The notes beneath the pieces are model-generated. The model was not told the DNA's origin. It saw only the letters and a program-made list of their open reading frames with translations, and ran no database searches. A DNA stretch of 51,839 nucleotides from contig CALWFV010000022.1 of assembly GCA_944377745.1 (NCBI GenBank), positions 1 through 51,839 on the forward strand, given 5' to 3'. The DNA comes from an uncultured Mediterraneibacter sp. (GTDB taxonomy: Bacteria > Bacillota > Clostridia > Lachnospirales > Lachnospiraceae). The translations under genes and the position numbers were made by a program. Within the stretch, counting starts at the first letter, position 1, and the number at the start of each line of letters is the position of its first letter. This document shows positions 38,739-51,839 of the stretch, one piece after another.

Positions 38739-39356
38739 TTAAATGATGCTGAACTTTATCTTTGCGCTGTCGGTTATAATATCGGCCACTTTACCGAAAT
38801 CGTCCGCCATAGAGCTGTCTATCAGCAAATGCCGGAATTTAGTGCTGAAAAACCTGTGTCTTGTATAATGCTTATAAAAATCCTCACGAGCCTTATCGAC
38901 CTTTGTAAGATAAGTGTACGCTTCTCCCGGATCCTCCAGATTAAGTTCTTCCTTACAGTTGGTCAGCCTTTTCTCAATGGGCGCATAGATAAATACATTC
39001 AGCATATTCTCATTCGGAATTCCGTATTCCCGAAGGACGTAGTCCGAGCACCTTCCGACGATGACGCAGTTCCGTGAAGCGGCCAGATCGACCATAACGC
39101 TCTTCTCCATCTCGAAAAGGGCCTTTTTCATATTCGAATTTCCCTTTCCCAGAGGATACATCATTTTGTCAAAAGGTGAAGCAAGCTGACCGTCAAATGC
39201 GGACAGTTTTTCAATATCGCCACGCATTTCCCTGACAGCAAGTTCAATAATATCCCTGTCATAATACTCATATCCCAGATTATCCGCAACCTTCCTTGCA
39301 ATTTTGCGTCCCAGGCTGCCGAACTGTCTTGTTACGGTAATAACATTATACGCCAT
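38739..39356 (-). CDS. cytidylate-kinase-like protein at the end of the urease operon
   Basis: A P-loop protein of 205 residues. It starts MAYNVITVTRQFGSLGRKIARKVADNLGYEYYDRDII, the opening of the cytidylate kinase-like family (PF13189), where the usual P-loop GxxGxGK is replaced by RQFGSLGRK. VIVGRCSDYVL and the LID-like VDKAREDFYKHYT also fit. The ATG at 39356 overlaps the end of ureD by 11 bases and has GGAGG nine bases upstream, so it is translated with the urease accessory genes. True Cmk activity is doubtful; its link to urea metabolism is unexplained. Confidence 0.8.
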   Translation of the reverse strand: MAYNVITVTRQFGSLGRKIARKVADNLGYEYYDRDIIELAVREMRGDIEKLSAFDGQLASPFDKMMYPLGKGNSNMKKALFEMEKSVMVDLAASRNCVIVGRCSDYVLREYGIPNENMLNVFIYAPIEKRLTNCKEELNLEDPGEAYTYLTKVDKAREDFYKHYTRHRFFSTKFRHLLIDSSMADDFGKVADIITDSAKIKFSII

Positions 39357-40089
39357 AATCACTTTCCTCCATAATTATTTTTCTGATATAACTTTCTATC
39401 TCATCGCTGCTGTTTCCCAGAATTCTCATGACCTGTCCTTTTTTTGCCCTGCTGACAGCAGACAGCAATACATCACTCTCAACGGATAAGATTTCATCCA
39501 TACCATAAAAATATGCCATTCCCTGATGTGTATATCCCTCAAAATATCCGATCCCGCCCGGATGAAATTCTTTCGGCACAAGTCTCGTGTTATCCGCAAA
39601 AACAGGTTTCCCGTCTTCATAGACGGTCGTTCCGGAGTGATATTTTCGAAACGCAAAGACTTCTCCCATAGCTTTTCTTCCACAGGCAAGCACGTCCTGC
39701 ATGACAAAACAGGCACCTTTCTCAAGGTAAACCTCATTTACATTTATAAACTCACTTTCAGTAAAAGGTATCATCGGACAGGGCAGATAGTACAGGACAG
39801 CGCCTTTTTCAACCTTTATTTTTACTTTCTGCTCCGCCCGTCCGTCTTCCATTCTGAAAATCTTCGTATACGACTGTCCGGTTATGATCACATTGCTTCC
39901 GCTCCTTATTTTGAATTCCATTTCGTGACTATCACCCGCAAGAATACCAGCAGACGCCTGCATGATCACGATCTCAGCCGCTTTACCGCTCTCAAATGGC
40001 TTTGTTATCTTAAACGGCGCCGTAAAAAAGCTGTCCTTTACAACAGTTTTTCCGTTTTCCTGTGTCGTTTCTATATACAGCCTTCCCAT
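39346..40089 (-). CDS. ureD: urease accessory protein UreD (UreH)
   Basis: A protein of 247 residues, the scaffold that binds apo-urease with UreF and UreG for nickel insertion. TAPFKITKPFESGKAAEIVIMQASAGILAGDSHEMEFKIRSGSNVIITGQSYTKIFRM is the conserved core of UreD/UreH. Its ATG overlaps the ureG stop by one base (TAATG). UreD being last among the accessory genes matches the E-F-G-H order known from Helicobacter. Confidence 0.93.
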   Translation of the reverse strand: MGRLYIETTQENGKTVVKDSFFTAPFKITKPFESGKAAEIVIMQASAGILAGDSHEMEFKIRSGSNVIITGQSYTKIFRMEDGRAEQKVKIKVEKGAVLYYLPCPMIPFTESEFINVNEVYLEKGACFVMQDVLACGRKAMGEVFAFRKYHSGTTVYEDGKPVFADNTRLVPKEFHPGGIGYFEGYTHQGMAYFYGMDEILSVESDVLLSAVSRAKKGQVMRILGNSSDEIESYIRKIIMEESDYGV

Positions 40090-40697
40090 TACATCCCCTC
40101 AAAGAGCACATCACGTCTGATCCAGTTTATAACATCATCAACGCCTTCCATGCTCATCAGATTGGTAAACAGAAAGGGGCGGCCTCCACGCATCCGCTTT
40201 GAATCCGCCGCCATGACATCCAGACTTGCCCCCACCATCGGCGCAAGGTCTGTTTTATTGATCACGAGCAGATCCGATCTCATAACGCCCGGACCGCCTT
40301 TCCGGGGGATCTTCTCTCCCTGGGCGACATCTATGACGTAAATGGAAGCATCTGCAAGATCAGGGGAGAATGTGGCGCTCAGGTTATCGCCGCCGCTTTC
40401 TATAAAAATGATCTCCACATCCGGGAACTTCCCTGCCATCTCCTCCACGGCCTCCAGGTTCATGGAGCAGTCCTCACGGATAGCTGTATGCGGGCATCCT
40501 CCTGTCTCCACACCTGTGATTCTCTCAGCATGGAGAGCAGAATTTTTAATCAGGAACTCCGCATCCTCCTTTGTGTAAATATCATTTGTAACGACACATA
40601 TGCTGTATTCCTTCGACATTTTTCGTGTAAGGCGCTCTATAAGCGCAGTTTTTCCTGAACCTACGGGCCCGCCAACACCAATTTTTACATATGACAT
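40089..40697 (-). CDS. ureG: urease accessory GTPase UreG
   Basis: A SIMIBI GTPase of 202 residues that delivers nickel to urease using GTP hydrolysis. P-loop [15 protein letters not shown] at about 8-22; the metal-binding CPH is seen in [35 protein letters not shown] and [13 protein letters not shown] (NKxD guanine recognition) complete the motifs. AAGGAG lies before the ATG. It lacks the long N-terminal His-rich tail found in some plants and bacteria. Confidence 0.96.
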
Positions 40698-40709
40698 TTT
40701 CTGTTCTCC

Positions 40710-41375
40710 TTATGTTATATACAATCTTGAAAATAATTTTTCATGCTGCATGGAGCGTATATCAAATCCGCACCCCGACGCTCCGATATCCTCCATCTTC
40801 ATGCTCACTGCCCGTCTGATCGCGTCCGGGATTTTCTCTGCCACGGCAAACAGAGCCTTCTGTCCGTCAAACTGCCTGAGTGGCACCAGCTTTACCGCAT
40901 GATTGACCATGGAAGACAATAGACTGTAACAGTACAGCTCCAGCGCCTCGGAAAGATCAGCGTCCGTCTCTTTTATAAACAGTCCCATTGCTATGGCGTA
41001 ATGCCCGTCACACACTCCGGCTTCGATCTGCTTTTTATACTCTTCAAGCAGCGGATAACTGTCAAGCTCTGTGTGCAGTTTGAGAAATCTGATGCACTGT
41101 TTCATGCTTCCCGTCCGCATCTCAAAAGGTGCTTTCAGTGCGCTGCACAGCGCGTCAAACGATATGATATCATACCCTTCCCAAACCTTTGCCGCAAAGG
41201 CAAGATCATTAAAAGACAGCATATAGAGATATGCTTCAAGATGACTTTCCAGCTCCTCCCTGGTGCATACGACATTTTTCTGCACATATGTCTCCATTCC
41301 ATTAGATAATGTATAGCTTCCGATGGGGAATAACGGATCCAGGCTCTGGATAAGCCTGATAAACTTAGTATTCAT
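40710..41375 (-). CDS. ureF: urease accessory protein UreF
   Basis: An all-helical protein of 221 residues that bridges UreD and UreG. LIQSLDPLFPIGSYTLSNGMETYV is its hallmark opening, and the end is FDIRSMQHEKLFSRLYIT. The ATG at 41375, eight bases after AAGGG, is the best start and overlaps ureE by 11 bases; the frame is open to 41414. Confidence 0.94.
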   Translation of the reverse strand: MNTKFIRLIQSLDPLFPIGSYTLSNGMETYVQKNVVCTREELESHLEAYLYMLSFNDLAFAAKVWEGYDIISFDALCSALKAPFEMRTGSMKQCIRFLKLHTELDSYPLLEEYKKQIEAGVCDGHYAIAMGLFIKETDADLSEALELYCYSLLSSMVNHAVKLVPLRQFDGQKALFAVAEKIPDAIRRAVSMKMEDIGASGCGFDIRSMQHEKLFSRLYIT

Positions 41376-41844
41376 GGTGATTCCCTTCATGTGTATGGCT
41401 ATGTCCGTGCCCATCCCTGTGCGCGTGGCCTTTACATTCTGTATAATCCGTGAATTGCTCTACAACCTTTTTCGTATCAAATCCCATTTTTGTCAGATAT
41501 TCGTATGTCGGAGCGTCGTACGGGATTTTCACACAGTCCGGTTTAATAGATAAAGAAATATGCCGGTTTCCGATTTCAAAGCACAGCCTTCCCATTTCCA
41601 TAATATCTGATACATTGATCTTTATCAGTTCGCATTCTGCCATTTCCACCGCAATGATACTGTTTTCATCCTCGTACAGAATATCCCCGTCATTCAGCGG
41701 CCTGTCCGGCCTGATCCCGATTTCCGTCCCTTTCTTTGAAGTCTTTTTCAGAATCTTTTTATCTCGTTCAAACCATTCAATAGAAACAGTATCAACGTCT
41801 TTATCTGTTTCATGAAAGTGCCCCAGAATTTTTTCAACGACCAT
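41365..41844 (-). CDS. ureE: urease nickel metallochaperone UreE
   Basis: A protein of 159 residues: N-terminal peptide-binding domain (MVVEKILGHFHETDKDVDT ... DRPLNDGDILYEDE), central nickel-binding domain with RHISLSIKPDCVKIPYDAPTYEYLTKMG, and a His-rich tail (HAHRDGHGHSHTHEG) that stores nickel. It dimerises and passes Ni(II) to UreG. It follows ureC after 26 bases. Confidence 0.93.
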   Translation of the reverse strand: MVVEKILGHFHETDKDVDTVSIEWFERDKKILKKTSKKGTEIGIRPDRPLNDGDILYEDENSIIAVEMAECELIKINVSDIMEMGRLCFEIGNRHISLSIKPDCVKIPYDAPTYEYLTKMGFDTKKVVEQFTDYTECKGHAHRDGHGHSHTHEGNHHEY

Positions 41845-41870
41845 TCTTTTACACGCATTCCTTTCTTAGC

Positions 41871-43583
41871 TTAAAATAAATAATATCTTTGTGTCAGCGG
41901 CAGCTCTTTTGCCGGTTCACAGGTGATCTCATCTCCGTCAACGCTTACATGATATGTCTCCGGATCGACCTGGATATCTCCTGTCCTGTCATTAAATTTC
42001 ATATCTTTTTTCCCGATGTTCCGGCAGTTTCCAACCGGAAGCACCATTCTGGAAAGCCCCAGTCTCTCCTTTATCCCGCCTTCTGCCGCAGCTTTGGAAA
42101 CAAAGGAGATGCAGGTGCGCTTACGGGCAAGTCCGTAAGCTCCGAACATATTGGTATAAACAACCGGCTGAGGAGTTGGAATGGACGCGTTTGCGTCTCC
42201 CATTTTTGATGCCACAATAAACCCGCCCTTTATGATCATTTCAGGCTTCACTCCAAACATCGCAGGCTTCCACAGGACAAGATCTGCGAATTTTCCTGTT
42301 TCCACCGAACCGATGTATTTTGCAAGGCCATGAGTAATGGCAGGATTGATAGTATATTTCGACACATACCGTTTCACCCTGAAATTATCATTTCTGCTGC
42401 TGTCCTCGGGAAGTGTTCCTCTCTGATCTTTCATCTTTGACGCGGTCTGCCATGTCCGGGTAATGACCTCACCCACACGTCCCATGGTCTGTGAATCACT
42501 GCTCATCATCGAAAAGATCCCCATGTCATGCAGCACATCCTCAGCGGCAATGGTTTCGGGACGGATACGGGAATCCGCAAAAGCCACGTCCTCTTTGACT
42601 TTGCTGTCGAGATGGTGGCACACCATCAGCATATCAAGATGTTCATCGATCGTATTGACCGTATAAGGCATCGTCGGATTCGTTGACGACGGCAGAATAT
42701 GCGGAAATGACGCTGCCTTTATGATGTCGGGAGCATGTCCGCCGCCTGCGCCTTCCGTATGATAGGTGTGAATGGTCCGGCCGCCGATCGCATTAACAGT
42801 ATCCTCAACGAATCCTGCTTCGTTCAGAGTATCTGTATGAATTGAGACCTGCACGTCATAGTGATCCGCCGCCTCCAGAGCCTGATCTATGACTGCGGGA
42901 GTGGCTCCCCAGTCTTCATGTATCTTCAGCCCGCACGCGCCCGCCTCTATCTGTTCCGCAAGAGCGTCATAATTGGAGCAGTTGCCCTTTCCAAGGTAAC
43001 CCAAATTTACCGGATAATCCTCGGCGGCTTCTATCATTTTTTCTATATTGAACCGACCCGGAGTACAGGTGGTTGCATTGGTTCCGTCAGCAGGTCCCGT
43101 GCCGCCGCCGATCATGGTCGTGATTCCTGAGTAAAGAGCTGTTTCAATCTGAGTGGGACTGATAAAATGAATGTGTGTATCAATTCCGCCTGCCGTAATG
43201 ATAAGCCCTTCCCCGGCTATTACCTCTGTACCGGCTCCTACAATCAGATCAGGACTCACTCCGTCCATGATATCCGGATTTCCAGCCTTTCCTATGCCGC
43301 AGATCCTGCCTTTTTTAATTCCCACATCCGCCTTAATGATTCCCATATGGTCAATAATCACCGTATTCGTAATCACCATATCAGGACAATCTCTGTCAGA
43401 TACATTGCATGCCTGTCCCATACCGTCACGGAGTGATTTTCCTCCACCGAACTTTGCCTCTTCCCCCTTAACCGTCAGATCTTTTTCCACTTCGATGATA
43501 AGTGAAGTATCGGCGAGACGTATCCTGTCTCCAGTAGTAGGTCCGAACATGCCAGCATACTGTTTCCTGCTCATTTTAAACAT
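41871..43583 (-). CDS. ureC: urease alpha (catalytic) subunit
   Basis: The catalytic subunit of 570 residues, hydrolysing urea to ammonia and carbamate. Metal ligands are visible: HIH in [12 protein letters not shown], the carbamylated lysine in [15 protein letters not shown], histidines in [10 protein letters not shown] and [14 protein letters not shown], and the aspartate in [12 protein letters not shown]. The flap histidine is in [22 protein letters not shown]. Length and motifs are normal. The ATG at 43583 overlaps the ureAB gene by eight bases. Confidence 0.97.
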
Positions 43584-44268
43584 TTTCGCTCACCCCCCTG
43601 AATCCTTTTTCTTTTGCCTTTTCCATCGCTGTCTCTTTGACGGCTTCATCATCAAAACTGCCTTTCACGAGCCCATTTAAGCCGTATCCTTTCCTGTTTC
43701 CGCCTGTCTTGACAAGGCGCACCCTTTTTGTTTCCCCCGGTTCAAAACGCACCGCCGTACCTGACGGAATATCCAGCCTCATTCCATATGCCAGACGTCG
43801 GTCGAACTCAAGCTGTTTATTTACCTCAAAAAAATGAAAGTGAGATCCGACCTGACAGGGTCTGTCCGCCGTATTGGTAACATTGATCTCCACAGTATCT
43901 TTTCCTTCGTTGATAACAAGCTCGTCATCATCAAAAATAATTTCTCCCGGCGTTACCTTTCCGTTAGCTTTGACAGGAAAATGGACTGTTACCAGCTTCG
44001 TACCGTCGGGGAAAGTCGCCTCAAGCTGGATCTCACTGATCATTTCCGGGACCCCGTCCATCACATCCTCTGCTGTCAGCAGTTTTGTACCGATCTGCAT
44101 CAGTTCTGCTACGCTTTTCCCTTCACGTGCTTTTTCAAGAAGCTGGGCAGATATATACGCGACCGCTTCGGGATAATTCAGTTTTATGCCTCTTTCCTTT
44201 CTCGCTCCCGCAAGCTCTCCGGCATAGTGGAGCATCAGCCGCTCCTGTTCTCTGGGTGTTAAATGCAT
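43576..44268 (-). CDS. ureAB: urease gamma-beta fusion subunit
   Basis: A protein of 230 residues uniting two structural subunits. Residues 1-100 are UreA (gamma): [39 protein letters not shown] and [33 protein letters not shown]. From about 110 follows UreB (beta): [43 protein letters not shown] and [18 protein letters not shown] similar fusion is known as UreA of Helicobacter, whose urease forms a large dodecamer; here the fusion has an extra tail ([21 protein letters not shown]). AGGAG lies before the ATG. Confidence 0.95.
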
Positions 44269-44283
44269 CCTCTCGCTCCTTTC

Positions 44284-44982
44284 TTACTGTGTCATCCTGT
44301 CCTGCACTTCCGCAGCATCCAGTTCGGAAGTGTTTCCCTTAAGTATGATCTCTCCTTTTTCCATAATATATAAACAATCGGAGATACCAAGTACAAAGTC
44401 AAGATACTGCTCAACGATCAGCACCGTCAGCCCCAGCTCTTTGTTGATCTTTCCGATCACATCTCCTATATCCTGGATAACTGACGGCTGGATGCCTTCT
44501 GTCGGCTCATCAAGGATAAGTATCTTCGGCTCTGTCACAAGCGCCCTCGCAATGGCAAGCTGTTGCTGCTGGCCGCCTGACAGGTCGCCGCCTTTGCGTT
44601 TTTCAAAGCGCTTCAGTATCGGGAACAATTCATAGATATACTCCGGAAGTTTCCCTTTACCGCCTCTTGCCTGAATTCCCAGCATAAGATTCTCATATAC
44701 AGTCATCTGAGGAAAAATATCGCGTCCCTGGGGCACATAACCGATTCCTTTTCTTACTCTGTTATAGGTCGGCATTTTTATGATCTCTTCTCCATCAAGC
44801 CTGATGCTGCCCTTCGGGGTCCTTACCAGTCCCATGATACTTTTCAGCGTTGTACTTTTTCCCACACCGTTTCTTCCGATCAGGCAGACGATCTTTCCTT
44901 TCTCAACATCTATAGAGAGGGAGGGAATGATCTTGCTGTCTCCATAATAAGCGTCCATATCTTTAATCTTCAGCATTTCCAT
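44284..44982 (-). CDS. urtE: urea ABC transporter ATPase UrtE
   Basis: An ATPase of 232 residues of the LivF type. Walker A GRNGVGKSTTLKSIMG, Q-loop YVPQGRDIFPQMTVYENL, signature LSGGQQQQLAIARAL, Walker B ILILDEPTEGIQPSVI and H-loop IVEQYLD. DEPTEGIQPS(V/I)I is typical of UrtE. It starts at 44982 after GGAGGAG, overlapping the urtD end by 20 bases. Works with UrtD on the UrtBC channel. Confidence 0.94.
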   Translation of the reverse strand: MEMLKIKDMDAYYGDSKIIPSLSIDVEKGKIVCLIGRNGVGKSTTLKSIMGLVRTPKGSIRLDGEEIIKMPTYNRVRKGIGYVPQGRDIFPQMTVYENLMLGIQARGGKGKLPEYIYELFPILKRFEKRKGGDLSGGQQQQLAIARALVTEPKILILDEPTEGIQPSVIQDIGDVIGKINKELGLTVLIVEQYLDFVLGISDCLYIMEKGEIILKGNTSELDAAEVQDRMTQ

Positions 44983-45748
44983 TTCTCTCTCCTCCCCTTC
45001 CCAGATATACTGCCCGGACTGTTTCGTCGGCAAGCACCTCGTTGCAGGTCCCTTCCATGAGCACTTTACCTTCGTGGAGCACTGTCACGCGGTCCGAAAT
45101 CTGTTTCACAAAGTCCATGTCATGCTCCACGACTATGATCGTACATGATTCTTTGATCTTTTTCAGTATTTCACCTGATTTGAACGTTTCAGGTTTTCCC
45201 ATACCTGCTGCCGGCTCATCAAGCATGATGATCTCCGGTCTCTGCACCAGCTGCATTCCGATTTCAAGCCACTGTTTCTGCCCATGCGCGAGAGCCCCTG
45301 CTTTTTCATCTTTTTTGTCTAACAGCTCAATCGTTTTAAGCACTTCGTTTATATGCTCTTCCTCCTCCGGGGACAGCTTATAGAAAACAGCCTGCCATAC
45401 CCCTTTATTGCCTTTCAGAGACAGGATCATGTTCTCCATCACCGTAAGGTTGACAAAAACAGACGGCACCTGGAACTTTCGTCCAATCCCTTCTTCTACT
45501 ATTTTATATTCTTTCATTCCCGTAAGCTTGATAGGAGCTCTTCCCTCAGGATAAAACATGCATAGGCCGTCCGTGGGTTTTGTCTTTGCGCAGATAATAT
45601 CAAGCAGAGTCGTCTTTCCGGCGCCGTTAGGTCCTATAAAAAAATGGATCGTATGCCGTTTCACGTTCACATTTACTCTCAGAAGTGCGCAGAATCCATC
45701 AAAATCCACTGTAATATTCTTTATTTCAAGTACATTTTCATTTACCAT
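44963..45748 (-). CDS. urtD: urea ABC transporter ATPase UrtD
   Basis: An ATPase of 261 residues of the LivG type. Walker A IGPNGAGKTTLLDI, GIGRKFQVPSVFVNLTVMENMILSLKGNKG (a UrtD-typical Q-loop region), the unusual signature LAHGQKQWLEIGM, Walker B IIMLDEPAAGM and H-loop VEHDMDFV. The AHGQ signature in place of SGGQ is normal in UrtD. GGAGGTGG, inside the end of urtC, precedes the ATG. Confidence 0.95.
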   Translation of the reverse strand: MVNENVLEIKNITVDFDGFCALLRVNVNVKRHTIHFFIGPNGAGKTTLLDIICAKTKPTDGLCMFYPEGRAPIKLTGMKEYKIVEEGIGRKFQVPSVFVNLTVMENMILSLKGNKGVWQAVFYKLSPEEEEHINEVLKTIELLDKKDEKAGALAHGQKQWLEIGMQLVQRPEIIMLDEPAAGMGKPETFKSGEILKKIKESCTIIVVEHDMDFVKQISDRVTVLHEGKVLMEGTCNEVLADETVRAVYLGRGGERNGNAED

Positions 45749-45749
45749 G

Positions 45750-46829
45750 CTATTCCACCTCCCCGCGGATTAATTTTTTCGTCCATTCAGGCAGCTGATC
45801 TCTCACGATACCCACAAGTCCGCCCTTAAAGAACAGGATTGTCAGTACAAATATTGCGCCAAGGATATATTGCCATATCTCAACCATGGTTCCGGATGAA
45901 AAATTATAATCGCATATATTAATAAGAAACGCTCCGAGAACAGCTCCCACAAGGGTGCCTCTTCCGCCGACTGCTACCCAGATGAGCATCGTGATCGAAT
46001 ATGAGATCGTCATCTGCGCAGGTGTGATGGAACCGTTAAAGTTTACAAATACAGCTCCGGCTATCGCTGCAAAGACAGCGGAAAGTACATAGATAAAGTT
46101 TTTATAACGACTTACACAGTAACCGGAAAAATATGTTCTGTTTTCCCCGTCGCGTATCGCTATGAGCAGCTTTCCGAACTTCCGCTGCGTAAGGAAACCG
46201 GACAGTACGTAGATCAGTACAAGGATCGCCAGGGAGGAATAGAACATAATAAACATCTTCCCCCTGTTGGAATCTCCTTTGATACTTCCCAGAAGAGAGG
46301 TGATCTCTGTAATACCCACATTACCGCCCGTGTAGGACTGAAGTCCCGTAAACAGGGAGTACGCCGCCCATGTCAGAGCCTGGGATATGATAGAAAAATA
46401 AACACCTTTGATCCTGTTTCTGAAAATGAAAAATCCGATCACACCTGCCAGTACAGCCGGGACCGCTATAACAAGGATCATGGCAAAAGGAGCCGACAGG
46501 AACGGTCGCCAGATCAAAGGCAGCTCGGTCATTCCTCCAGTCTGCATAAACGAAGTGATATTTCCGTCTGTTGCCTTCAGTTTCAGAAACATCGCCATAG
46601 CATAGCCGCCAAGGGCGAAATACAGGCCGTGGCCAAGAGACAGAATTCCTGTATATCCCCAGATAAGATCAAGCCCGATCGCCACAATGGAAAACGCGAT
46701 ACATTTTCCCAGAAACAGTACAAAAGAACTGCTCGAGATCACTCCGGCCGATAATAAAAGAGGCGTAAGAGCCAGTATGATCACGATAACTGCAAAACAT
46801 ATATGATAGCCCCGGTTTTTTAATTTCAT
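45750..46829 (-). CDS. urtC: urea ABC transporter permease UrtC
   Basis: A LivM-type permease of 359 residues with about ten helices. DLIWGYTGILSLGHGLYFALGGYAMAMFL, the conserved IRDGENRTYFSGYCVSRYKNFIYVLSA and IWVAVGGRGTLVGAVLGAFLIN are UrtC signatures. It forms the channel with UrtB. AAGGAGGTAGGGG lies before the ATG, 14 bases after urtB. Confidence 0.95.
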   Translation of the reverse strand: MKLKNRGYHICFAVIVIILALTPLLLSAGVISSSSFVLFLGKCIAFSIVAIGLDLIWGYTGILSLGHGLYFALGGYAMAMFLKLKATDGNITSFMQTGGMTELPLIWRPFLSAPFAMILVIAVPAVLAGVIGFFIFRNRIKGVYFSIISQALTWAAYSLFTGLQSYTGGNVGITEITSLLGSIKGDSNRGKMFIMFYSSLAILVLIYVLSGFLTQRKFGKLLIAIRDGENRTYFSGYCVSRYKNFIYVLSAVFAAIAGAVFVNFNGSITPAQMTISYSITMLIWVAVGGRGTLVGAVLGAFLINICDYNFSSGTMVEIWQYILGAIFVLTILFFKGGLVGIVRDQLPEWTKKLIRGEVE

Positions 46830-46843
46830 GAGCCCCTACCTCC

Positions 46844-47755
46844 TTACTCGTCAAGCTTTCTGCTCTTTACTGTGAACAGTCCCTGCGGTCTGAACTGAAG
46901 GACCACGATAACGATTAAGAGCACTGCTGCTTTTGCGATACTTGCAGATGTATAGTTCTCGATTCCGATACTTGCAGATCCGATAATCGATGAGCCCAGT
47001 ACTGTACCGAGAAGTTTTCCGACTCCGCCCAGCACTACCGCGATAAATGAATTTACTATATAACTCTGACCGATGGTAGAGTCGATGGAACCTAGCAGCG
47101 CAACAGAGCATCCGGCAAGTCCAGCAAGTCCCGAGCCAAAAGAAAACGTAATCATATCCACCTTTCTGGAGTTGATGCCCATGCACTGAGCCATTGCTCT
47201 GTTCTGCATAACAGCACGCATCTGTTTTCCAAAATTTGACTGATACATGATATACCAGACCAGGACCATACAGAGAATGACCATGCACAGTATGAAAATA
47301 CGGTTATAGGAAAAAGTACATGAACCGATCGAAATACCACCATCAAGGAATGACGGCGCCTTTACGTTAACCCCCTGCATACCGAATACACTTCTGGCCG
47401 CCTGCTGAAGTATAATGCTTATTCCCCAGGTGGCAAGCAGGCTGTCAACCTCCCTCCCGTAAAGTCTGGATATAACAAATCTTTCCAGCACCGCTCCGAA
47501 AAAAAATGTTACCGCAAACGCTGCAATAAGAGAGAAAAAATAATATAAACTGAATATGCTCTCCGGAAAAAATTTTTCAAAAAAATTCTGCACAACATAT
47601 GTCATATAAGCGCCGATCATCAGGAATTCGCCATGCGCCATATTGATAACTTTCATAAGTCCGAATGTAATTGCAAGACCTAAAGAGGTCAGCAGTATGA
47701 TGGAACTGAGACTTACGCAGTTAAAAACTGTATTTACAAATTGTGTCATGCCCAT
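46844..47755 (-). CDS. urtB: urea ABC transporter permease UrtB
   Basis: A LivH-type permease of 303 residues with about eight helices. LTSLGLAITFGLMKVINMAHGEFLMIGAYMTYVVQN and the EAA-like RAVMQNRAMAQCMGINSRKVD with the UrtB-specific SGLAGLAGCSVALLGSIDSTIGQSYIVNSFIAVVLGGVGKL are clear. Two starts are possible, ATG at 47755 or 47749; the latter is better spaced from GAGAGG. A strong hairpin in the 103-base gap after urtA may lower its expression relative to the binding protein. Confidence 0.95.
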   Translation of the reverse strand: MGMTQFVNTVFNCVSLSSIILLTSLGLAITFGLMKVINMAHGEFLMIGAYMTYVVQNFFEKFFPESIFSLYYFFSLIAAFAVTFFFGAVLERFVISRLYGREVDSLLATWGISIILQQAARSVFGMQGVNVKAPSFLDGGISIGSCTFSYNRIFILCMVILCMVLVWYIMYQSNFGKQMRAVMQNRAMAQCMGINSRKVDMITFSFGSGLAGLAGCSVALLGSIDSTIGQSYIVNSFIAVVLGGVGKLLGTVLGSSIIGSASIGIENYTSASIAKAAVLLIVIVVLQFRPQGLFTVKSRKLDE

Positions 47756-47796
47756 ACCTCTCTTTCATTTATAACAGGATAGATCAAACTATTAAT

Positions 47797-47823
47797 ATAG
47801 AGCTGCCGCATTGACAGCTCTAT
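47797..47823 (-). promoter_or_regulatory. intercistronic stem-loop between urtA and urtB
   Basis: ATAGAGCTG (47797-47805) and CAGCTCTAT (47815-47823) make a perfect 9-bp stem with a nine-base loop. On the transcribed strand ATTAATAGTTT follows, a poor T-run. Such hairpins after binding-protein genes commonly stabilise the upstream mRNA or partly stop transcription, giving more binding protein than permease. Confidence 0.6.
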
Positions 47824-47858
47824 CCAGTAAATGTTCTGTCCGTACAGGAAATTTTCGT

Positions 47859-49085
47859 TTATTCCAGCGGCTGGAGATCTGCTTCTACAGCCCAGTTATA
47901 GGACTTCAGATATGGATCCGGAATAACCGGCGCTGTCTCTTCCACCGTATCAATCTGACCGTCTGCATTGATCACACCGATTCGTACAGGTTTTATAAGA
48001 TGATGATTTTCGGCGTCAATTTCTACAGTCCCTTCCGGGGCATCAAACGTAATCCCGCCTTCTTCTACTACCGCGATCACATCTTCCGGTTCAAAACTTT
48101 CCGCTTTTTCTACAGCAGCCTTCCACAGATATACTGCATCGTATGCCGCCTCTGCAGGATCTGATGTCACTCTGTCACTGCCGTATGCATTCTGATAAGC
48201 TTCTACAAATGCTTTATTTTCAGGTGTGTCAGTAGACATATAATAATTCCATGAAACCATATGCCCTTCAAGAATATCCGCGCCGATCGTTTTGACCTCT
48301 TCCTCCGCGATTGAGAAGGACATTGTCATGTAATCATCCGCCGTATAATTCTTCTCGCTCATCTGCTTGAAGAAGGACAGGTTGCCGGTTCCGTTCAGAG
48401 TATTGATGATCACGTCAGGTTTTGCCGCCTCGATCTTTGAAATGATCGATCCGAAATCCGTCTGATCCATCTGAGCGTATTCTTCGCCGACTACCTCAAC
48501 ACCTTTTGCGTCACACTGCGCATTAATGATCATATTTGCTGTTCTCGGGAATACATAGTCAGAACCGAGGAGGAAAAATTTCTTATAACCCTGGTCGATC
48601 AGATAATCGATAGCAGGAACGATCTGCTGATTCGGAGCCGCTCCTGTATACATGATATTGGACGAGGATTCCATTCCCTCATACTGAACCGGATACCATA
48701 AAAGGTTGCCATATTCCTCAAATACCGGCTTTACTGCCTTCCTTGAAGCTGACGTCCAACAGCCGAACACTGCCTTTACCTTGTCCTGATCGATCAGCTT
48801 TTCTGCCTTTGTAGCAAAAGTTGACGGTTCTGACGCGCCATCCTCCTCGATATATTCAATCTGCCTGCCAAGGATTCCACCGGCTTCATTTATTTCATCG
48901 ATTGCCAGCACTTCAGCATCTTTAACAGCTCCTTCGCTGATCGCCATGGAGCCTGTTGCCGAATAAAGGATTCCGACTTTTACTGTATCCTCTGAGTCTT
49001 CCTGCGAACCTGCTCCTCCGCATCCGGCCATTGATACAGCCAATATAGAACTTAAAAGTATTGCTGCAAATTTATTCTTCTTCAT
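47859..49085 (-). CDS. urtA: urea ABC transporter substrate-binding lipoprotein UrtA
   Basis: A lipoprotein of about 408 residues. A lipoprotein signal ([23 protein letters not shown]) puts the acylated Cys at about residue 22, followed by an acidic linker. The mature part [42 protein letters not shown] and [27 protein letters not shown] is typical of UrtA rather than amino-acid-binding LivJ. It captures urea (or short amides) outside the cell. Two ATGs, 49088 and 49085; the second is better spaced from AGGAG. A 36-codon ORF ends 25 bases upstream. Confidence 0.94.
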
Positions 49086-49110
49086 CATAATCTCCTATCT
49101 CCCTGAATAA

Positions 49111-49221
49111 TCAAGGGCCATCTGCCGGGAACTTCTTCCCGACAAATGACCCCATTGTCTTGTCTTTCCATATTGTGCACCCTATGATCAAAAAAGGAAG
49201 CCAATTACGGATCTCTCTCAT
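49111..49221 (-). CDS. 36-residue leader/small protein upstream of urtA
   Basis: The minus strand carries AGGAAG, six bases, then ATG at 49221 and an open frame to TGA at 49111-49113. The product starts MREIRNW, has a hydrophobic stretch WLPFLIIGCTIW long enough to dip into a membrane, and ends in a basic part GKKFPADGP. The ATG and ribosome site lie in the 5' arm and loop of a strong terminator hairpin, so translation of this ORF should open the hairpin. It could be a leader peptide controlling the urt-ure operon, a tiny membrane subunit, or both. Too short for standard gene finders; I know no family for it. Confidence 0.55.
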   Translation of the reverse strand: MREIRNWLPFLIIGCTIWKDKTMGSFVGKKFPADGP

Positions 49222-49232
49222 AATTGACTTCC
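49190..49232 (-). terminator. promoter-proximal terminator/attenuator of the urt-ure operon
   Basis: On the minus strand GGAAGTCAATTA (49221-49232) pairs over 12 positions (one G-U) with TAATTGGCTTCC (49196-49207) around 13 bases, and TTTTTT (49190-49195) follows: a complete intrinsic terminator. It lies only about ten bases after the predicted transcription start, ahead of the whole operon, so it must be regulated or leaky. Confidence 0.75.
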
Positions 49233-49247
49233 TCGTCTACGCAGGCT

Positions 49248-49276
49248 AGTATATCAATCCTTTTTTCGTTTGTCAA
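49248..49276 (-). promoter_or_regulatory. promoter of the urt-ure operon
   Basis: On the minus strand TTGACA (49271-49276), a 17-base spacer and TATACT (49248-49253), with TG one base upstream of the -10 box (extended -10), form a very strong vegetative promoter. Transcription should start near 49241, giving a leader of about 155 bases before urtA. Confidence 0.8.
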
Positions 49277-49606
49277 ACAAATTTCCTTTTAACAATTTAA
49301 TTTTGTAGGACTCTGACAATATCATCTGAAAATTCCCGCCATTTTCTATATTATTCACAAACATTCCACACCATACTTTGCAATCAAAACCGCCGGGGTG
49401 CTTAACAGATTTACAGACTGTCAGCCATGAATCAGTGTCCGATCCAATTTCCGTCCACATGCGGGGATCACATAGCCTAGTATAATAGGAAACAGGGATT
49501 TCGCTTTTATACAAAAGAAATAGGGGATAAAGCTTGAAAACGCGAAGGATCATCTAAAATAGAAAAACCTGAAAAAATTCTTTTTTGGAATATATAAATA
49601 CACAAA
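49277..49606. other. gene-free stretch between the urea promoter and the insertion sequence
   Basis: About 330 bases of AT-rich sequence. A 99-codon minus-strand frame (49254-49553) crosses it but has no ribosome site, overlaps the promoter and reads like no known protein. No RNA gene or strong repeat was recognised; a nitrogen-regulator site could lie here but none was identified. Confidence 0.5.
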
Positions 49607-49665
49607 AATGGCACCTTTTTCGGTATAATTATAGTATCCAAAAAAACAAGAAAGAAGGTGCCATT
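49607..49665 (+). repeat. 11-bp inverted repeat folding over the transposase ribosome site
   Basis: AATGGCACCTT (49607-49617) and AAGGTGCCATT (49655-49665) are exact inverted copies. The right copy contains AAGG, the ribosome site of the ATG at 49667. A -10-like TATAAT (49624-49629) lies between them, so transcripts made from the element's own promoter lack the left arm, while readthrough from outside would fold and hide the site, as known for IS10 and IS50. Confidence 0.6.
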
Positions 49666-49666
49666 A

Positions 49667-50892
49667 ATGAAAAGAAATTAGAGTTAAAGAAACTCCTCAT
49701 CTATGCTAAAAGTGTATATCACATTCTGAAAAAAATCAAGGAGTTGACAGATAAAAGAGCAAGAAAAACGATCCCATTTTTTAATCTTATTATGCCGGTG
49801 TTCCTATTTCTCCTGCTTCAATACGAAAGTTTCCATACTGTTTTTTCCGCACCAGAGAGTATGAGGAAACGCCTGAGGCACTGTATCCGCGGGAGAATCC
49901 CAAAAGTGGATGACGTCCGGGATGGCCTGAGTCTGACAGACCCGGAAGAAACAGAAAGGATCCTTGCTGATACTGTCAGCAGGATCCGAAAGAATGCGGT
50001 CTTGCGCGGCGGAACAATCGGCGGGTATGTAACAGCAGCGATTGACAGGGTGGAGCTTTTTTGCAGCAGGAAGAAAAACTGCGAAAGATGCCTGACCCGT
50101 AAAACAGCTTCCGGAGAGGTGGAATATTTCCATAAAAGTATTGTATGTACCACAATAGGAAACAATCCGCATCTGATCCTGGGGCAGGACATGCTTGGGC
50201 CCAGAGACGGGACAGAGAAAGATGAAGGGGAACTGACAGGCGGAAAACGTCTGATAGAAACTTTATACAGTCAGCATGGACATTTTGCGGACGTGATTGT
50301 TGCAGACGGCCTCTATCTGAATGCTCCGTTCCTAAAAGTAGTCCTGAATTGTCATATGGAGGCAGTCATCCGTCTGAAGGATGAACGGAGGCTGATATTT
50401 CAGGATGCAGAAAAGCTGTTTGGGAAAGGAGAAGGGAGAAAAGAGCCTTTTTACCGGGAAGGGAAAAAGATCGACTGCTGGGATCTGGATGGATTTGAAA
50501 TAGAAGGATTGGAAAAGGAACTGCGGGTTGCCCGATATTGTGAGAAAAACGAAAAGACAGGGGAAGAAAAATGGGTATGGCTGGTAACAACCAGCAAAGA
50601 GATCGATCATAAGATTTTATGGAAGATGATGCATAAGAGATGGGATATTGAAGAGAATGCCTTCCATCAGTTAAAGACATATTATCATGCAGATCATTGT
50701 TACTGTCATGAAGCAGTGGAAGTGATATTTCTATTAATGCTGATTGCATTTAACATACGGGAAATGTATCTGTACCGGCGGATCCATGGATTTGAAGGGA
50801 GTGGGATCACAAGGAAAAGTGTAACGCGGATCTTTCGGGATGACCTGCAGGCGGGGGATGTACGCAGAATCCTGTATCTAGAAGGCGGATAG
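49667..50892 (+). CDS. IS4-type DDE transposase with a frameshift at codon 4
   Basis: A transposase of about 408 residues. The catalytic triad can be placed at Asp (AIDRVEL, codon near 50044), Asp (VIVADGLY, near 50305) and Glu in RWDIEENAFHQLK (near 50650), the Y/R...E...K signature of the IS4 group. The ATG at 49667 reads MKRN and stops at once. Adding one A to the run at 49675-49677 would give MKRKLELKKLLIYAK and join the long frame, so the copy has lost one base. Alternatives are slippage on the A-rich run or sequencing error. Terminal repeats and target duplications could not be located. Confidence 0.8.
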
Positions 50893-51063
50893 AAATAGGA
50901 AAAAGAGAATAAGGGGTGGTGGAGTCTGAAAAAGGGGAGTTTTTCAGGCAGGATACTTTCTGCACGAAAAAGATGGCGAAATAAGAGTCGGGGGAGTTGG
51001 AAAGGGAAAACAACACAGATGAATATTTATAAAAGGGAAATCCCTGTTCCGGAGCCATTTTCC

Positions 51064-51092
51064 TTTTGTAAAAGTCTCGTTTCTGGTATAAT
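51064..51092 (+). promoter_or_regulatory. promoter before the IS66 transposase gene
   Basis: TTTTGT (51064-51069), 17 bases and TATAAT (51087-51092), preceded by TGG, make a fair promoter 26 bases before the start codon. The 225 bases between the two transposase genes show no other gene. Confidence 0.45.
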
Positions 51093-51117
51093 AAAGGTAT
51101 CAAATCCGAGGAGAGAA

Positions 51118-51839
51118 ATGATGGCTTCCAGTGCAAAAGATATCCAGCTTCGAGAGCTGAAAGATACAGTATCACAACTGAAAACAATGGTATCTGAACA
51201 GACTGAGTTGATTAAATCTCTCCGTCTTATTATTGACGAAAAATCCGGTCACGAGAAAGCGCTTCAGAAACAGGTCGATTATCTGACCAAAAAGCTTTTC
51301 GGCTCATCCAATGAAAGAAGATCCGATGACATTCCGGGGCAACAGAATCTTTTCGATGAAGCGGAAATGGAACAGGGTCCGTCCTTGCTGGAAGAAGAAA
51401 CTGTGATCAAGGAACATACCCGTAAAAAGAAGGCAACCCATGAGGATCTCTTCAAAGGCCTGAAGGTTGAAAAAGTAGTGATCCCTCTTCCGAAAGAAGA
51501 CCAGATCTGCCCGGTATGCGGCACGCAGATGGTCCTGATCGGTGAGGAGTATGTCCGCCGGGAACTGGAATTCATTCCTGCCACCTGTAAAGTGATCGAA
51601 TACTACAGCCAGAGTTACGGATGCCCATCCTGCAAGGAAGGACTCGGCGATACGGAAAAGCCTGTGATCGTAAAGTCTCAGGTGCCGGCGGCTCTGGTTG
51701 GGAAAGGTCCTGCCTCAGCATCCACTGTTGCATGGACCATGTATCAGAAGTATGCCAATGGACTTCCCCTTTACCGGCAGGAGAAAGACTGGAAACAGTA
51801 TGGGGATCAGATCAGCCGCACTACACTTGCCAACTGGAT
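51118..51839 (+). CDS. IS66-family transposase (TnpC), cut by the window end
   Basis: The first 240 codons of an IS66 transposase, running off the end. An N-terminal coiled-coil leucine zipper (IQLRELKDTVSQLKTMVSEQTELIKSLR) is followed by LTKKLFGSSNERR, the IS66 N-terminal domain; then the zinc finger CPVCGTQM...GCPSCKEG, and VPAALVGKGPASASTVAWTMYQKYANGLPLYRQEKDW, the start of the DDE domain. ATGs at 51118 and 51121 follow GAGGAG. No tnpA or tnpB is seen upstream, so the element may be tnpC-only or incomplete. Confidence 0.92.
   Translation, partial: MMASSAKDIQLRELKDTVSQLKTMVSEQTELIKSLRLIIDEKSGHEKALQKQVDYLTKKLFGSSNERRSDDIPGQQNLFDEAEMEQGPSLLEEETVIKEHTRKKKATHEDLFKGLKVEKVVIPLPKEDQICPVCGTQMVLIGEEYVRRELEFIPATCKVIEYYSQSYGCPSCKEGLGDTEKPVIVKSQVPAALVGKGPASASTVAWTMYQKYANGLPLYRQEKDWKQYGDQISRTTLANW

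Follow-up and report, generated by a model that had tools for sequence, protein, structure and literature searches.

A tandem hexaloop–terminator switch before a urea uptake and urease operon of Mediterraneibacter, probably worked by an ANTAR protein

What decides whether RNA polymerase enters the operon for urea uptake and urease of an uncultured Mediterraneibacter sp.? The stretch of DNA analysed here (51,839 nucleotides, hereafter the window) carries this operon with urtA as its first gene and the order urtABCDE-ureABCEFGD according to Pfam domains, the urt gene names being assigned from the domain order (Table 1). An initial annotation had proposed that the urtA leader gates the whole operon of about 10 kb, either by a ribosome that starts on a hidden leader ORF and melts a terminator or through a ligand or protein that acts on the leader. 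The gene order supported the reach of this proposal, and a promoter-proximal terminator probably gates all of urtABCDE-ureABCEFGD. The leader is a real, functional-looking double switch, and its probable kind is an ordinary one, namely ANTAR antitermination of a nitrogen operon. A protein identical to UrtA of the window was found at locus L036, whose record is titled Candidatus Mediterraneibacter norfolkensis. Some further features of the region were recorded. At the operon end, the next gene after ureD is cytidylate-kinase-like (Pfam PF13189; 38739-39362, minus strand), and in several related loci, as judged by eye, urtA is directly preceded by a gene with a similar-looking end. A pair of transposase genes (DDE_Tnp_1 and IS66; 49585-51837, plus strand) diverge from the operon, starting about 300 bp upstream of its promoter. 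A match to Rfam RF02514 (5_ureB_sRNA, 77 bits; 43139-43431, plus strand) runs antisense to ureC and perhaps merely reflects the conserved urease coding sequence.

Table 1 Features of the urtA leader, its operon and the ANTAR locus of the same genome
Feature	Position	Strand	Remarks
Sigma-70-type promoter	49248..49276	-	TTGACA-N17-TATACT with extended TG; 11/12 consensus bases
Hexaloop hairpin 1	49226..49237	-	GAC-GAGGAA-GTC, GACGAGGAAGTC; loop G1 A2 N3 G4 R5 R6; proposed ANTAR binding site
Intrinsic terminator T1	49190..49234	-	16-bp outer stem, six-U run; 5′ arm includes 3′ half of hexaloop 1
Hexaloop hairpin 2	49148..49159	-	GAC-AATGGG-GTC, GACAATGGGGTC; A1 and G4 both present
Terminator-like hairpin T2	49104..49153	-	18 bp, weak U tract TTGATTATTC; 5′ arm includes 3′ half of hexaloop 2
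36-codon leader ORF	49111..49221	-	Present; judged most likely fortuitous
urtA	47859..49088	-	Operon starts here; binding protein of a urea ABC transporter (Peripla_BP_5, E 3.6e-146)
urtB, urtC, urtD, urtE, fused ureAB, ureC, ureE, ureF, ureG, ureD	39346..47755	-	Pfam domains
ANTAR gene	L092:8172-8732	-	Directly downstream of glnA, between glnA and dapF
glnA	L092:8921-10276	-	Beside the ANTAR gene

The near-perfect promoter described in the initial annotation was confirmed. It is the top-scoring of 10 promoter-like sites in 47000-51839, while shuffled sequence yields 9.1 such sites at a looser 9-of-12 cut. Ten nucleotides past its -10 box begins a conserved motif that overlaps the first hairpin, and L036 and L037 share the same promoter, likewise 10 nt 5′ of the motif. 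The promoter-proximal intrinsic terminator was borne out as well, with a hairpin (49234-49194) running into six T (T1). Hexaloop 1, at about position +5 of the predicted transcript, retains G4 of the loop but carries G at loop position 1, where A is the usual base. After a spacer of about 30 nt, a second unit follows with hexaloop 2 and T2, and in both units an antiterminator hairpin thus overlaps an intrinsic terminator. As the 3′ half of each hexaloop doubles as part of the terminator 5′ arm, hexaloop and terminator are mutually exclusive. T1 folds with -22.8 kcal/mol, compared to -10.3 kcal/mol with hexaloop 1 held; holding hexaloop 2 leaves a 12-bp hairpin that is separated from the U tract of T2. 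Since the terminators are favoured over the held hexaloops by 12.5 and 12.2 kcal/mol, respectively, something must hold the hexaloops. The 162-nt leader as a whole folds with -60.7 kcal/mol, while shuffles reached -36.3 ± 3.7 (z = -6.5; 0 of 200 shuffles as good). A second hairpin noted earlier, CGGGAA/TTCCCG (49126-49141), does exist, but it is the tip of an 18-bp stem (49153-49114); the terminator scan lists this second hairpin only, because the loop of the first exceeds the limit of the scan. By eye, a stretch resembling GTGCACAnTGTGG was noticed between T1 and hexaloop 2 in L036 (1965-1977), and also in L037, L039 and L040. It ends about 5-10 nt 5′ of hexaloop 2, and no A1/G4 hexaloop was found in this stretch of the tandem leaders.

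According to the leader-peptide explanation, a ribosome would melt T1 by initiating at the ATG of the 36-codon ORF. This ORF is present, although its stop lies 22 and not 25 bases before urtA (49088), and it is nothing unusual, with 64 ORFs of at least 30 aa overlapping 44000-51839. The ATG (49221-49219) indeed sits in the hairpin, at the top of the first stem, where it is paired in the predicted fold, and a Shine–Dalgarno-like AGGAAG lies six bases 5′ of it. These bases, however, belong to the hexaloop consensus R-A-N-G-R-R-G, which resembles a ribosome site by composition. In the sister lineage L037 and L038 (UrtA 95% identical), the frame stays open with a two-codon insertion and tblastn matched the 36-residue peptide (E 6e-9 and 2e-8), but the start codon has become ACG. 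Moreover, the peptide identity of 20/36 stands against 15.9 expected for unconstrained DNA of equal divergence and is reached by 11.75% of simulations, so that the peptide is kept no better than neutral DNA. L039 and L078 gave weak partial peptide matches only (E 0.35 and 0.11). A GTG occupies a comparable place in L039, L078 and L041, whereas by eye the leaders of L045, L053, L058, L059 and L076 have no such start. No conserved short ORF across the terminator was thus found. We consider the ORF most likely fortuitous and control by its translation extremely improbable; action of a ligand or protein on the leader, the other possibility named in the initial annotation, fits the findings.

The comparison with other urtA leaders demonstrated that the conserved feature is the hexaloop–terminator unit and not the peptide. 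This element is a 12-nt hairpin, GRC-(RANGRR)-GYC, which merges into the 5′ foot of an intrinsic terminator; the terminator arms vary freely in sequence yet covary, while the 12-mer is constant. The motif GRC-RANGRR-GYC occurred within 450 nt upstream of urtA in 37 of 45 loci, or 37 of 43 when two loci with cut-off leaders (L046, L077) are left aside; loci without it in this interval are L055, L069 and L070 (titled Fibrobacter), L056, L061 and L065. Terminators found independently of the motif, 40 in the leaders of 41 loci, carried an R-A-N-G-R hexaloop at the foot in 31 cases, compared to 12 of 424 other terminators at the same loci (p = 1.6e-30). As the search pattern required motif positions 1, 5, 7, 10 and 12, only loops unselected by sequence measure conservation without bias, and in 35 such loops A1 was present 29, A2 33 and G4 32 times. 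Across 122 sites, A1 was found in 114 and G4 in all 122, G4 and A2 being required by the search pattern. The hexaloop stem was 100% paired in 37 sequences, which the search pattern favoured, and the terminator stem was 88.7% paired, with two-sided changes in 100 cells versus 32 in shuffles. L038 was excluded from these sets as a near-duplicate or for an unclear terminator, as were in some sets L044, L046, L050, L058, L067, L073, L077 and L078. Two complete units, as in the window, were present in 9 of the 37 loci (L036-L039, L041, L064, L078-L080). L040 and L067 have two copies each that are less clear; the first copy of L040 starts at 2786, has a stem of only 2 bp and is included among the 122 sites above and the 124 leaders below. 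One relative has two urtA copies (L002/L038 and L039; G027 and G458), both behind tandem hexaloop–terminator leaders.

The palindrome GAC-N6-GTC at the start site might instead be a DNA operator for a transcription factor, with the terminators coincidental, and in 38 of 124 leaders an inverted repeat is located just past the -10 box. The probability of this explanation is close to nil. The right half of the 12-mer lies within the left arm of a terminator in 45 of 48 urtA-leader sites (no terminator was found for L050 and the two motif copies of L067). Furthermore, pair 2/11 across the 122 sites was AT 79, GC 20, GT 20 and AC 3 times, so that G·T pairs far outnumber A·C. In addition, tandem leaders have their second copy away from the promoter, at a distance of 54-131 nt from the first (78 nt for the two window copies).

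A covariance model, R1, was built from 37 of 39 usable sites. Of these 37, 36 lie in urtA leaders (including both window sites as their L036 copies, and L032) and one, L060 at 2108, precedes the gene upstream of urtA. R1 matched both window units (49190-49239, E 7.3e-9, and 49107-49161, E 6.7e-5), whose identical L036 copies were in the training set. The third match in the same genome was the leader of the ammonium transporter gene amtB (L096, E 0.003). It comprises a single unit, in which the motif begins 9 nt past the -10 box. Two weaker matches (L097 and L098, E 0.15 and 0.73) look like chance. Across the family, 66 of 299 genomes had matches at E ≤ 0.001. We inspected the best 72 of 88 family-level places and 39 of 40 class-level places. 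The 85 downstream proteins from ANTAR-bearing genomes comprised 8 glutamine synthetases, 8 ammonium transporters, 7 CTP synthases, 6 P-II proteins (including a transporter fusion), 4 asparagine synthases, 2 glutamate synthases, 2 carbamoyl-phosphate synthases and 2 UrtA from training loci, the remainder being mixed and in many cases of unknown relevance. This set includes L097 and L098 and omits a duplicate (L095), 14 matches from ANTAR-less genomes and five proteins below 100 aa. Nitrogen genes account for 38 of the 85, a total in which P-II and Amt overlap in the fusion protein of L202; the share is 36 of 83 without the two training urtA loci and at least 35 of 80 without the genome of the window, with the training urtA locus L099 not counted. 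A nifH gene (L190, PF00142, E 7.8e-130) was among the class-level matches. Few genes follow the motif more often than that of CTP synthase (7 of 85: L108, L111, L112, L124, L127, L136 and L138), which suggests that hexaloop control reaches glutamine-using pyrimidine synthesis.

A conserved RNA that overlaps a terminator before the genes of one pathway might also be a small-molecule riboswitch, with the motif as an aptamer for glutamine or ammonium, for example, and in genomes like G262 and G611 such a switch would do without a regulator. However, just 12 nucleotides and a 3-bp stem are conserved while the rest of the unit varies, and the sequence is that of a known protein-binding hexaloop. 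At gathering score, Rfam covariance models matched neither the leader of the window nor those of 12 of the 45 related loci; seven leader matches below this score, at E up to 10, were chance-like and none was credible. We therefore regard a riboswitch as quite improbable.

The protein-binding hexaloop in question is known from eut terminators, which share AGCAANGRRGCUY at their 5′ foot; an ANTAR protein holds this sequence as a hairpin with a six-base loop in which A1 and G4 matter (PMC3369931, excerpts). The loop of the urtA leaders matches this published antiterminator sequence. The genome of the window encodes one detected ANTAR protein (G000:C11:42189-42326, 63.9 bits at a cut-off of 27.3), and its gene adjoins glnA. 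In C. saccharobutylicum, the ANTAR protein NitR induces the GS/GOGAT genes on nitrogen limitation (PMC6316151 in excerpt, citing Stutz 2007); the two proteins are likened by gene context, that is, an ANTAR protein tied to glutamine synthetase genes. A glnA-like ORF was found at 6 of 15 ANTAR loci with a narrow pattern. The closest solved chains are EutV (E 1.9e-8), Rv1626, NasR (4akk) and AmiR (1qo0). In the alignment, with residue numbers transferred by our own count, the phospho-acceptor Asp54 of EutV faces Gly, Met172 is kept, and Tyr164, which stacks on loop G4, faces His (AHRYLQK or similar), as it does in four other relatives caught by pattern at the 15 loci tried. Since Gly replaces Asp54, the protein is, as far as the alignment tells, probably not switched by phosphorylation. 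The signal is probably a partner protein rather than a kinase, with glutamine synthetase as a natural candidate. AmiC-AmiR, NasR and NasS-NasT likewise combine an ANTAR protein, a leader terminator and a nitrogen-source operon; they sense amide or nitrate, whereas the ANTAR gene here has no obvious sensor gene next to it (its neighbours are glnA, dapF and an AraC-type gene).

Co-occurrence of ANTAR protein and motif was only moderate. Among the genomes with urtA, 36 of 44 have an ANTAR protein, and the three titled Fibrobacter lack both protein and motif. At the class level, ANTAR proteins were detected in 22 of 30 motif-positive versus 164 of 341 motif-negative genomes (p = 0.012, with same-genus genomes not independent). 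Within the family, the numbers (61 of 66 versus 204 of 233) are uninformative, as ANTAR proteins occur in 265 of 299 genomes. ANTAR-bearing genomes with a motif-less urtA are represented by L056, L061 and L065. Motif-bearing urtA loci in assemblies without ANTAR are L036, L040, L041, L053 and L076; L036 shares its urtA with the window, and the genome of the window does have an ANTAR protein. Among the 14 R1 matches in assemblies without detected ANTAR, four precede nitrogen genes in genomes that are 81-100% complete, including G262 (gltB) and G611 (P-II) with 97 and 100%. The eight class-level matches in ANTAR-less genomes comprise two without a hexaloop, two in the same SpoIVB-type coding sequence, three without a recognisable nitrogen gene and that of G611 before P-II. 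Motif-bearing genomes of this kind would suit an RNA-binding protein other than ANTAR as the reader of the hexaloop, as would the unusual ANTAR protein of the window with His for Tyr164 and the lack of the upstream hexaloop discussed below. Against this, the loop matches the ANTAR consensus exactly, the ANTAR gene adjoins glnA and the regulon is one of nitrogen genes, so that a non-ANTAR reader appears unlikely.

In EutV, an upstream hexaloop, P1, is needed in vivo (PMC3369931, excerpts). It has been described as a recruitment hairpin that is needed because terminators fold fast, in a 2022 study that also took one hexaloop as the new minimal ANTAR site and called for work on such sites (PMC8934654, excerpts). 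Judged by sequence and covariation, the urtA leaders contain such a hexaloop as a candidate binding site. In our leaders, P1 was not enriched: it was seen in 13 of 124 versus 11.7 by shuffling, in 6 versus 5.5 with a linker of 3-14 nt, and in 12 versus 9.4 with a linker of 2-25 nt. A second hexaloop a short linker upstream, as in the dual-hexaloop class, was thus not found. The set of 124 combines 47 urtA-leader sites with 77 of 107 model-match loci; omitted were initially 9 loci (copies of the window, weak or odd matches), then 11 without the exact pattern and, by hand although the pattern was present, 10 others (L133, L134, L139, L158, L165, L174, L175, L177-L179). The positive control, 30 eutP-like loci of the same family, failed to reveal P1, with three pattern matches, none convincing and none with P1, and the negative result therefore rests on the shuffles and on promoter geometry. 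In 38 of the 124 leaders, including the first unit of the window, the motif starts 5-14 nt past the end of a promoter-like -10 box, compared to about 4 in shuffles. This leaves no room for P1, and the hexaloop would fall inside the first ~10 nt of the RNA, given the predicted start sites. The other leaders showed no such promoter, and for those within operons the transcripts could be longer. The second hexaloop thus appears to be absent, and this is the unusual feature of the switch.

Taken together, we propose that a NitR-like ANTAR protein works the tandem antiterminator/terminator pair of the urtA leader when nitrogen is short, a reading to which we assign a probability of roughly 0.8 on the basis of sequence comparison. 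RNA polymerase would start at about 49241 (predicted) and by default stop at T1 and T2. Nitrogen shortage would activate the one ANTAR protein found, which may then grip hexaloop 1 on its exit from the polymerase and block T1. The same action at hexaloop 2 would allow the urt-ure operon to be made together with amtB. Unlike in EutV, the antiterminator hexaloop would itself stand at the predicted RNA 5′ end, with no recognisable recruitment hexaloop upstream. Like the eut antiterminators (PMC3369931, excerpts), the leaders described here have G4, mostly A1, the loop AANGRR and a 3′ half within the terminator 5′ arm, along with an ANTAR protein in the genome and nitrogen genes downstream. They differ in that no P1 was found, in that the hexaloop is predicted at the very start of the RNA in the 38 leaders mentioned, and in that some leaders carry tandem complete units instead of P1-P2 and can have G at loop position 1. 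Counted against the ANTAR reading are the missing P1, the G at position 1 of loop 1, His in place of Tyr164, the moderate co-occurrence, the nitrogen-gene matches and motif-bearing urtA loci in ANTAR-less assemblies and the motif-less urtA genes in ANTAR-bearing genomes. In EutV, an A-to-U change at loop position 1 lowered induction (PMC3369931, excerpts).

This kind of switch is already known, since ANTAR sites were reported in 2012 before urea transporter, ammonium transporter, P-II, nitrogenase and glutamine synthase genes (PMC3369931, excerpts). In the open-access literature as seen in excerpts, the leader of this operon and single-hexaloop terminator sites were not found described, and a 2025 paper on Lachnospiraceae urease (PMC12001548) contains neither 'antiterminat' nor 'urta'. 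Single-hexaloop sites could have been missed, because two published target searches, according to excerpts, required two hairpins (PMC3369931; PMC8164766). There is about an even chance that a Clostridia-wide nitrogen regulon exists in which ANTAR antitermination operates at single hexaloops, often at the 5′ end of the transcript and without a recruitment hairpin. If true, the P1 step would be dispensable where the hexaloop is the first to emerge from RNA polymerase. R1 provides a searchable model, with dozens of candidate single-hexaloop terminator sites, some of them in cultured species by record title (L062, L074). Urease and urea uptake by gut Lachnospiraceae can supply nitrogen to the community, and the urtA leader offers a concrete, testable switch for this process.
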